This document shows positions 19,783-33,561 of a stretch of 64,000 nt of DNA, piece by piece. Position 1 is the first letter of the stretch. The number at the start of each line of letters is the position of its first letter. Made by a program: the position numbers and the translations under genes. The stretch lies in assembly GCA_035571835.1 (NCBI GenBank), contig DATNBU010000029.1:310001-374000 (forward strand), given 5' to 3'. The notes beneath the pieces are model-generated. The model saw only the letters and a program-made list of their open reading frames with translations. It was not told where the DNA came from and searched no databases. The stretch comes from Candidatus Limnocylindrales bacterium (GTDB lineage: Bacteria; Desulfobacterota; Binatia; UBA1149; CAITLU01).

Positions 19783-20850
19783 TCATGCGCACGCACGTCT
19801 CGACGGCGCGCCCCCGTGCGCAATTTCTTCGAGCAATGCGGCCGTTTCGTCCCAGCCGATGCACGCATCGGTGATGGATACACCATAGGCGAGCGCATCC
19901 GCGGTCCAGTCCTGCCGCCCCTCGGCGATGTTGCTTTCGATCAGCAATCCCATGAGCCGCCGCTCGCCGAGCTGCAGAGCTCTTGCCACCTCGCGCGCGA
20001 CGCCGGATTGCCGCCGATAGTCTTTCGACGAGTTTCCGTGCGAGCAGTCGACCATGACCGGTCTCGCGATGCCCTCTCCGGCGACCATGTCGGCCGCCCG
20101 CGCGATGTCGCCGATCGCGTAGTTCGTGGCGTTTCCTCCACCGCGCAAGACAACGTGCCGGTCCGGGTTGCCGCGCGTGCGGATGATCGCCGTCGCGCCG
20201 TCCTCGTCGATGCCGAGAAACGCATGCGGATGCCCGGCCGAGATCATCGCATTCTTTGCCACGTCGAGGCTTCCGTCGGTTCCGTTCTTGAAGCCGACGG
20301 GCATCGAAAGGCCGCTCGCCATCTCGCGATGCGTCTGGCTTTCGGTCGTGCGCGCACCGATGGCCGCCCAGCTCACGGCGTCGCCGATGTACTGGGGCGT
20401 CACCGGATCGAGGAATTCGGTTCCGCACGCGACGCCGAGCGTGTTGATCTCGACCAGCAGGCGGCGTGCAAGCTCGAGGCCGCGATCGATGTCGCAGCTG
20501 CCGTCGAGGTCCGGATCGTTGATGAGCCCTTTCCACCCGATCGTTGTGCGCGCTTTCTCGAAGTACGTCCGCATCACGATCACGAGGCGATCCTCGAGAG
20601 GTCTTGCGATGCGGCTGAGCCGCCCGGCGTAGTCGAGCGCCGCATCCGGCTCGTGGATCGAGCACGGACCCACGACCACGGCGATGCGTTCGCGGTCGCG
20701 CCCGCCGAGGATCTCGCGAAGAGCGTGGCGCGTGCGGCGGACAGTCTCGAGCGCGCGGCCTTCGAGCGGATGGGCCTGCTTGATCACCCGCGGCGGACGC
20801 AGCGGCGATACCCGGGTTACGTGGATGTCTTCGATGTCACTGGTTTTCAC
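19783..20850 (-). CDS. aroG: 3-Deoxy-7-phosphoheptulonate (DAHP) synthase, class I alpha
   Basis: It condenses phosphoenolpyruvate and erythrose 4-phosphate, the first step of the shikimate pathway. The 355-residue length and motifs are those of the AroF/G/H type: VGPCSIHEP near residue 60, a TYFEKARTTIGWKG stretch, GTEFLDPVTPQYI, WAAIGARTTESQTHREMASG and DCSHGNSSKD. The GTG start at 20850 has GAGGGAAG 5-12 bases upstream. A promoter, a 24-residue leader peptide rich in aromatic residues and a terminator hairpin lie directly upstream, so expression is probably attenuated by aromatic aminoacyl-tRNA levels. Which amino acid feeds back on the enzyme cannot be read. Confidence 0.94.
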   Translation of the reverse strand: MKTSDIEDIHVTRVSPLRPPRVIKQAHPLEGRALETVRRTRHALREILGGRDRERIAVVVGPCSIHEPDAALDYAGRLSRIARPLEDRLVIVMRTYFEKARTTIGWKGLINDPDLDGSCDIDRGLELARRLLVEINTLGVACGTEFLDPVTPQYIGDAVSWAAIGARTTESQTHREMASGLSMPVGFKNGTDGSLDVAKNAMISAGHPHAFLGIDEDGATAIIRTRGNPDRHVVLRGGGNATNYAIGDIARAADMVAGEGIARPVMVDCSHGNSSKDYRRQSGVAREVARALQLGERRLMGLLIESNIAEGRQDWTADALAYGVSITDACIGWDETAALLEEIAHGGAPSRRACA

Positions 20851-20931
20851 GTTGCTTCCCTCACGGACTGTTCTCGATTTCGTCAATCTCGTCGATGCGC
20901 TGGCGCTCCGGCTCGCGCGACGCGGAAGGCC

Positions 20932-20965
20932 AAAAAAAAGCCCCGGGAACTTCTTCCCGGGGCTT
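20932..20965 (-). terminator. Attenuator terminator hairpin upstream of DAHP synthase
   Basis: On the minus strand the arms GCCCCGGGAA and TTCCCGGGGC (20963-20954 and 20949-20940) form a 10-bp stem, extendable by two A-T pairs, around a 4-base loop. It is followed by eight T (20939-20932). It stands between the leader peptide stop and the aroG start, which is where an attenuator must be. The 5' arm can alternatively pair with CCGGGGC inside the leader peptide gene. Confidence 0.88.
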
Positions 20966-20999
20966 CCTTCCGCATCGCGCGGCAATTTTGTTCAGCTCG

Positions 21000-21074
21000 C
21001 TACGCGCACGTCGTCGGCCCCGGTTCCTGCGGGATAAAATAGGACCATACGACGAAGATCGCGCTCGGCTTCAT
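21000..21074 (-). CDS. Aromatic-rich leader peptide of the DAHP synthase attenuator
   Basis: The 24-codon ORF runs ATG to TAG. Residues 7-13 read FVVWSYF, so Phe, Trp, Tyr and Phe fall within seven codons. Codons 18-20 carry CCGGGGC, which is complementary (7 bp) to the 5' arm of the terminator downstream. A ribosome waiting at the aromatic codons would leave this segment free to form an antiterminator; one reaching the stop codon would cover it. No good ribosome site is seen; the predicted transcription start is at or near the ATG, so initiation may be leaderless. I know of no described relative with this exact peptide. Confidence 0.75.
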   Translation of the reverse strand: MKPSAIFVVWSYFIPQEPGPTTCA

Positions 21075-21083
21075 GACGGGGCG

Positions 21084-21112
21084 ACCATACTCGGGCGTCG
21101 GCCGCGTGGCAA
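21084..21112 (-). promoter_or_regulatory. Sigma-70 type promoter for the DAHP synthase leader
   Basis: On the minus strand TTGCCA (21112-21107), a 17-base spacer and TATGGT (21089-21084) match five of six and four of six consensus positions. The -10 ends nine bases before the leader peptide ATG. Confidence 0.6.
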
Positions 21113-21139: not shown

Positions 21140-21679
21140 TCAGGAGATGCCGAGCTTGGTGCGGCCTTCCTCGGAGATCATGTGGGGAGTCCACGGCGGA
21201 TCCCACACGACGCGCACGCTCGCGTCTTTTACGCCGGGAATCGAGCGGATCTTGTCCTCGGCATCGGCCGCGATCGAGGCGCCCATCCCGCAGCCCTGCG
21301 CGGTCAGCGTCATCTTGATGTCGACGCGCCAGCCGCCTTCGGGAAGGTCGCTGATGCGGGTGTCGTAGACGAGGCCGAGGTCGACGATATTGACCGGGAT
21401 CTCCGGGTCGTAGCACGTGCGAAGCGCCCCATCGACGAGCGCGTCGATGTCGCCCTCCGCCGACTCGAGCGCTTTTGCCTCGGGCGGAATCTCCAGACCG
21501 AGAGCGTCCGCATCGCGGCCGGCGATGCGGAACAGACCACCGTATTGCGGCGCCTGCACTGTGAACGAGCCTCCCAGCGACTGGCTGAGGTAGATTTCCG
21601 TTCCGGCCGCGAGGCGAACCTTGTCGCCCTGCGGGATCTTGACGGCTTCGCATTCGCGGACGAGATCGAGGCGTTCCAT
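21140..21679 (-). CDS. sufT: SufT family Fe-S cluster assembly protein
   Basis: The 179-residue protein has the two-part SufT layout. An N-terminal beta domain (about 1-70, with KIPQGDKVRLAAGTEIYLSQSLGGSFTVQ) precedes a DUF59/MIP18 domain (about 78-175, with YDPEIPVNIVDLGLVYD and LTAQGCGMG). The Cys in TAQGCGMG is the conserved DUF59 residue. SufT helps mature Fe-S proteins under high demand. It lies alone here, divergent from moaA, whose product is itself an Fe-S enzyme, and upstream of the aroG leader. Confidence 0.88.
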   Translation of the reverse strand: MERLDLVRECEAVKIPQGDKVRLAAGTEIYLSQSLGGSFTVQAPQYGGLFRIAGRDADALGLEIPPEAKALESAEGDIDALVDGALRTCYDPEIPVNIVDLGLVYDTRISDLPEGGWRVDIKMTLTAQGCGMGASIAADAEDKIRSIPGVKDASVRVVWDPPWTPHMISEEGRTKLGIS

Positions 21680-33491: not shown

Positions 33492-33561
33492 TAGCGACCC
33501 GCTGCCACAGGGTCGCGTCTAGCGACCCGCGGCCACAGGGTCGCGTCTAGCGACCCGCGGC
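33492..33561. repeat. 28-bp tandem repeat (2.5 copies), each unit a hairpin, spanning the DUF1329 stop codon
   Basis: Units begin at 33492, 33520 and 33548 with period 28 and one visible mismatch between the two full copies (CTGCC against CGGCC). Each full unit contains GCGACCC...GGGTCGC, a 7-bp stem. The third, partial copy is the last coding triplets and the TAG of the DUF1329 gene, so the repeat arose by duplication of the gene end into its 3' untranslated region. Confidence 0.85.

Follow-up and report, generated by a model that had tools for sequence, protein, structure and literature searches.

The type I DAHP synthase gene in the window, by which the whole 64,000-nucleotide stretch analysed here is meant, is very probably controlled by a ribosome-mediated transcription attenuator of the trp/phe type. 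Computation bears this out in the anatomy of the region, in conservation among relatives, in co-variation of the pairing across many loci and in energetic feasibility. Loci, genomes, contigs and families are referred to below by our own labels (L, G, C and f, respectively) where they need to be told apart.

Anatomy of the leader region

The attenuator elements are all on the minus strand, as is the DAHP synthase gene (Table 1). An earlier note on this DNA, made from the letters, had listed a promoter, a 24-codon aromatic peptide, the segment CCGGGGC, a terminator with eight T and a DAHP synthase gene, with no mention of the strand, and every one of these elements is present. The sigma-70-like pair TTGCCA-17-TATGGT is the sole promoter-like match between 19700 and 22000 (shuffle mean 0.3), and 9 nt separate its -10 hexamer from the leader ATG (21074); going by spacing only, transcription would start at about 21078-21076, 2-4 nt 5' of that ATG. 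No Shine-Dalgarno-like string was found 5' of the window leader ORF. Residues 7-13 of the leader peptide read FVVWSYF and include four aromatic codons, namely TTC (F7, 21056-21054), TGG (W10, 21047-21045), TAT (Y12, 21041-21039) and TTT (F13, 21038-21036).

Table 1 Features of the leader region and the DAHP synthase gene in the window.
Feature	Positions	Strand	Basis and remarks
-35 hexamer TTGCCA	21107..21112	-	Promoter scan
-10 hexamer TATGGT	21084..21089	-	Promoter scan; 17 nt spacer from -35
Leader ORF MKPSAIFVVWSYFIPQEPGPTTCA, 24 codons, stop included	21000..21074	-	ORF translation; comparable leaders elsewhere
Control codons region	21036..21056	-	F7, W10, Y12, F13
Possible protector hairpin, codons 7-12 with codons 18-22	21009..21054	-	MFE fold of the whole leader
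Antiterminator segment CCGGGGC	21017..21023	-	Codons 18-20 (Pro-Gly-Pro); duplex, recoding and compensatory-change results
Intrinsic terminator GGAAGCCCCGGGAA-GAAG-TTCCCGGGGCTTTT	20936..20967	-	Fold and terminator scan
Type I DAHP synthase gene, aroFGH family	19783..20850	-	TIGR00034, 459.6 bits (cut-off 173.2)

The complementarity claimed between CCGGGGC and the 5' arm of the terminator is found as GCCCCGG at 20963-20957, the letters CCGGGGC recur in the 3' arm, and the T run, with eight T in all, occupies 20939-20932. The terminator scan of the 64 kb returned three strong terminators including this one, which is the only one of the three with an aromatic-rich short ORF 5' of it. A simpler scan did not list the terminator at 20967-20936, the likely reason being that some of the T run is taken up in the stem. 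The fold of the window leader beats all 200 shuffles (z -3.2). In the MFE fold an outer stem, GCGGAAGG...CCTTCCGC, encloses the terminator and the T run (20975-20920, minus strand), so that the full hairpin exceeds the terminator itself. The pairing of the possible protector hairpin has a probability of 0.03 in an RNA ending before the terminator 3' arm. The DAHP synthase gene starts with GTG at 20850, with GAGGGA upstream.

Downstream on the same strand (19736-17538, minus) there are genes coding for a small HmuQ-like protein, with the similarity below the cut-off, and for ilvD; both are also found near the DAHP synthase gene in L004. Elsewhere in the window, a strong intrinsic terminator (33445-33412, minus) lies behind a gene ending at 33547, and GGGTCGCTAGACGCGACCCTGTGGC is repeated between the two.

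Proposed mechanism and ribosome-position model

In the mechanism that we infer, which covers the start point, stalling, termination in vivo and the sensing of all three amino acids, transcription would begin very close to the leader AUG. A shortage of Phe-, Tyr- or Trp-tRNA would make the ribosome stall at codons 7-13 and leave CCGGGGC (codons 18-20) free to pair with the terminator 5' arm, and the antiterminator thus formed would let RNA polymerase read on into the DAHP synthase gene. With the aromatic tRNAs charged, the ribosome would come to stand at the stop codon and cover CCGGGGC, upon which the terminator would form and transcription would end.

The model gives the ribosome an assumed footprint that extends from -18 to +11 nt relative to the A site, and the energy measure is the number of kcal/mol for holding the terminator 5' arm in other pairs. 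For the window this measure is 4.4 without a ribosome, 13.0 at F7, 12.4 at W10, 14.2 at Y12, 14.4 at F13 and 6.4 at the stop codon, with 13.5 for the stalled state; by this measure the earlier suggestion that a ribosome held at any of the aromatic codons frees the segment holds within the model. Only the energy measure separates the ribosome states in the window; the pairing probability barely differs (0.48 free, 0.49 stalled, 0.44 at the stop codon) because other pairs take over in the shortened RNA. The stalled state exceeds the stop-codon state at 40 of 46 loci by energy and at 45 of 46 by probability, and three of the 12 Binatia leaders (L006-L008) show no preference for it by the energy measure. 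The last Trp codons are very near the segment in L010 (W16), L011 (W16), L018 (W11), L033 (W15), L036 (W16-W17) and L044/L127 (W15), where a stalled ribosome should therefore cover the segment.

Conservation in Binatia

Leaders were called in the DNA upstream of DAHP synthase homologues as short ORFs with four or more F/W/Y within nine residues, accompanied by a terminator that lay no more than 15 nt upstream or 100 nt downstream of the leader stop codon. Of 181 upstream regions the caller picked out 52, and 45 of 172 once duplicate loci were removed; in windows taken elsewhere in the same loci it was positive in 0 of 875, and in dinucleotide shuffles in 1 of 860. A close DAHP synthase, defined by E <= 1e-125, was met in 23 of 148 Binatia genomes, and the conservation check called for in the earlier note came out in its favour: the reading frame is kept in relatives, with leader and terminator in 12 of the 23 (11 by the caller and L008 by eye). 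In L009 the contig end falls inside an aromatic leader (..RLGFFYFPVTHRGRGST). The remaining ten, nine of family f7 and L017, show no such leader, and inspection of seven of these loci by eye revealed nothing convincing, so the leader is dispensable. The caller made no call on the more distant Binatia DAHP synthases L019-L032, of which L028 has no upstream DNA.

The Binatia peptides vary (examples from the alignment are MSTFAAAYFAYFTWPDLGAGGCVNG, MIASQTRSWFFGYFTWRRPGLREGLTSA and MSRGAFRFAYFTFPWWAPGRRRTT), with F-x-YFTW-like runs and a Gly after them being kept, and with PG in seven of the 12 aligned. Phe, Tyr and Trp are all present in each of the 12, and aromatic leaders with terminators recur across several Binatia families. 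Phe codons in the Binatia leaders are TTT 21 times and TTC 14 times, as against 6 and 40 in the downstream genes (Fisher p 1e-5). The TTT excess may tune the sensitivity or keep the stall region unstructured, although the notion that rare codons raise attenuator sensitivity is disputed in the available part of one account (PMC1183508).

The leader profile A1, built from 11 Binatia leaders of the set and one from Myxococcales, was run over 143 Binatia genomes and gave E below 1e-4 at 11 sites, every one before a DAHP synthase gene, while missing its own member in G023. Since the profile was built from such leaders, the result says only that there is no close copy before other Binatia genes. Among its weaker matches most had no locus, and in L261-L269 the caller found no leader with a terminator. 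In the window's own genome no leader was found at the second type I DAHP synthase fragments at contig ends (C36, C43) or at a probable kdsA (C45, assigned from the neighbouring genes).

Other aromatic genes of the relatives were covered in the 600 nt before the domain match. A Trp leader with a terminator was present at four of 30 trpE loci and no leader at any of 30 pheA loci, a set without the own genome's pheA; none was called at the trpE of the own genome (L293). WRW or WWRW-like short ORFs followed by a terminator precede trpE in L278, L288 and L290 (family f12 Binatia) and L292 (f5), and these are probable Trp attenuators.

Probable near-leaderless start

Among 18 leaders from Binatia, Myxococcota and Chloroflexota, 17 have the motif TTG[ACT]C at a distance of 35-47 nt 5' of the leader start, and in the 18th, L093, TTGAC is also upstream if the start is taken as its ATG and not as a downstream TTG. 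This spacing predicts a transcript start about 0-6 nt before the start codon (11 in L005), and the leader mRNA is thus probably near-leaderless in these three groups. A weak purine-rich Shine-Dalgarno-like string precedes six of the 18 presumed near-leaderless leaders; such a string precedes 12 of 28 Desulfobacteria leaders.

Antiterminator pairing

Downstream of the last aromatic codon comes the segment that pairs with the terminator 5' arm. Over 46 loci the mean antiterminator duplex energy is -18.20 kcal/mol with the arm of the same locus and -14.85 kcal/mol with permuted arms (0/1000 permutations), and differences in the same direction were obtained for the 28 Desulfobacteria (-18.27 and -16.30, 0/1000) and for a further, separate collection of 46 Desulfobacteria leaders, all distinct (-17.83 and -16.23, 0/2000). 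The covariation anticipated in the earlier note is seen in that the pairing tracks the terminator arm over many loci; the test is not significant in the 12 Binatia alone (-18.71 and -18.14, 148/1000), because their arms are nearly alike. Binatia together with the two Myxococcota gave 31/1000.

Compensatory forms are CCGGGGC:GCCCCGG, CCCAGGGCT:AGCCCTGGG (L010) and CAGGGC:GCCCTG (L044, L127), a G-C of the first having become A-U in these three loci. A control in which the segment is recoded with synonymous codons yields a weaker duplex (z below -1) for each of the 12 Binatia and two Myxococcota and for 23 of 28 Desulfobacteria; it fails for three of four Chloroflexota. The synonymous-codon controls and the modelled ribosome positions fit stalling-induced antitermination.

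Distribution in other phyla

Aromatic leaders with terminators recur outside the Binatia as well as in several of their families, and the interpretation of the window locus as an attenuator gains support from this. In Desulfobacteria, by which the class of a Desulfobacteraceae genome is meant, leader and terminator were called at 28 of 30 loci and in 50 of 60 further upstream regions, and eight of the ten uncalled regions have an aromatic leader by eye, with the terminator not called. These leaders include runs such as YYYFYYYYYY. Two Myxococcota genomes were called, the count being two of six close loci in the class of a Myxococcales genome, where the upstream region of L128 contains N. Four Chloroflexota genomes were called, including L056 and L093; in the class of a Chloroflexi genome the caller found two of 24 loci, and L164 was added by eye. 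Five of the best 80 loci of the genome-collection scan were called, and none of the Enterobacteria and Cyanobacteria loci among these 80.

In the tree of DAHP synthases (156 rows), leader presence taken as a label needs nine changes, at least five of which are forced by well-supported branches, as against about 29 for shuffled labels, a comparison to which near-copies contribute. The attenuated genes of Binatia and Myxococcota fall within one supported clade of 31 (14 with and 17 without a leader, by the caller), which also contains Nitrospirota genes without a leader. Desulfobacteria form a separate clade and Chloroflexota are placed elsewhere, and the distribution may reflect a single origin followed by losses or several origins.

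Two further features were observed in Desulfobacteria. In L134-L137, L154 and L159 a second terminator-like hairpin with a GGCCGTGG-type stem lies between the attenuator terminator and the DAHP synthase gene, and two DAHP synthase genes are located close together on one strand in G577:C1:4036310-4039588, G600:C1:3099533-3102766 and G513:C302:275-3438.

Alternative explanations

Attenuation could be real with one aromatic amino acid counting in practice and the other codons being bystanders, an alternative that we consider somewhat doubtful but that deserves serious attention. AroR of Corynebacterium glutamicum responds to Phe, with Tyr availability reported not to matter in the part of the article available (PMC11802643); the Trp codons near the segment are expected to be poor stall sites in several relatives, and in the two Desulfobacteria sets no more than 11 of 28 and 23 of 50 leaders contain Trp. 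Against this, all three residues are present in 12 of 12 Binatia and two of two Myxococcota leaders, and by the energy measure the four aromatic positions of the window free the antiterminator about equally.

It is very unlikely that the hairpin serves only as an ordinary terminator for a sufT-like gene upstream of it (21140-21679) and that the short ORF arose by chance. That gene does lie just upstream on the same strand (201.6 bits, just under the cut-off of 202.6), and the terminator at 20967-20936 would stop its transcripts too. However, within about 1.3 kb of upstream DNA sufT occurs only in L003-L005, whereas in other Binatia leader and terminator stay with the DAHP synthase gene; aromatic leaders were observed in unrelated neighbourhoods, none of the 875 background windows combines a leader with a terminator, and the pairing follows the leader of its own locus.

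A metabolite-binding riboswitch or a T-box in place of a translated leader, to which the structured leader (z -3.2) might point, is the least probable explanation and extremely so, as no Rfam family, amino-acid leaders and T-box included, reaches the gathering score in 13 loci (the window having sub-threshold matches only), what recurs is a reading frame for aromatic residues, and in 96 close Desulfobacteria pairs, which are not independent, synonymous changes make up 213 of 773 codon differences when the leader frame is read, compared with 95 of 727 and 157 of 745 when the two other frames are.

Relation to known leaders and significance

A ribosome-mediated attenuator at a DAHP synthase gene has its closest known precedent in AroR, the leader peptide of C. 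glutamicum aroF, which Neshat et al. reportedly described in 2014 and whose transcript is reported to be leaderless. In trpL and pheL, the attenuators of E. coli and other enterobacteria, a leader ORF with control codons is combined with an antiterminator/terminator alternative. The window resembles these in its leader ORF with control codons, its alternative hairpins and the aromatic-synthesis gene downstream, but its leader sits at the common first step and contains several aromatic residues; no Shine-Dalgarno-like string precedes it, and the antiterminator segment falls within the ORF itself.

AroR (Phe-Tyr-Phe) precedes aroF, coding for DAHP synthase, according to the available parts of two articles (PMC11802643, PMC4046766), the second of which reports four leaderless small mRNAs without names. 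The earlier note had named the trp and phe operons of enterobacteria as established cases of attenuation; this kind of control is not limited to them, given AroR before a DAHP synthase gene. As compared by description, a short aromatic leader stands directly before the DAHP synthase gene in both C. glutamicum and the window; they differ in that Phe-Tyr-Phe there corresponds to FVVWSYF...PGP here, with Trp added, in another phylum, and the FYF motif is absent from the window peptide. Leaderless leaders have been described, in the parts of the sources at hand, for trpL of Sinorhizobium meliloti (PMC7298713) and for leader peptides of Streptomyces lividans (PMC8079986). Their mRNA starts with the start codon or directly adjacent to it, as predicted for the window leader; they precede other genes, and the S. 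lividans account, as far as available, includes no DAHP synthase leader.

In the open-access work read, no leader before a DAHP synthase gene was found besides that of C. glutamicum, nor a description of an aromatic DAHP synthase switch in the bacterial groups carrying the leader here; one may exist in subscription papers, a 2004 survey of proteobacterial attenuators among them. As AroR and leaderless leaders were already known, the mechanism is not new; the gain lies in its distribution, in a leader with all three aromatic residues and in the evidence from comparison.

It is tentatively suggested, as a possibility that we hold nearly in balance, that this is a multi-phylum control of shikimate entry, with a leader that acts as an OR-gate for all three aromatic tRNAs. 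In Binatia, Myxococcota and Chloroflexota it would be near-leaderless; in Desulfobacteria, where runs such as YYYFYYYYYY would be read, it might be the standard control of DAHP synthase. The DAHP synthase genes of E. coli are under the repressors TyrR and TrpR in the account available (PMC11802643), whereas in uncultured Binatia the control is apparently exerted by a translated RNA switch, found also in most examined close homologues of Desulfobacteria, a class of sulfate reducers. One short peptide could thereby report simultaneously on three amino acids. Altogether 96 leaders were collected (46 and 50); they are natural variants for relating stall position, codon choice and antiterminator strength to the response, and such leaders predict a regulated DAHP synthase gene in organisms with little genetics.
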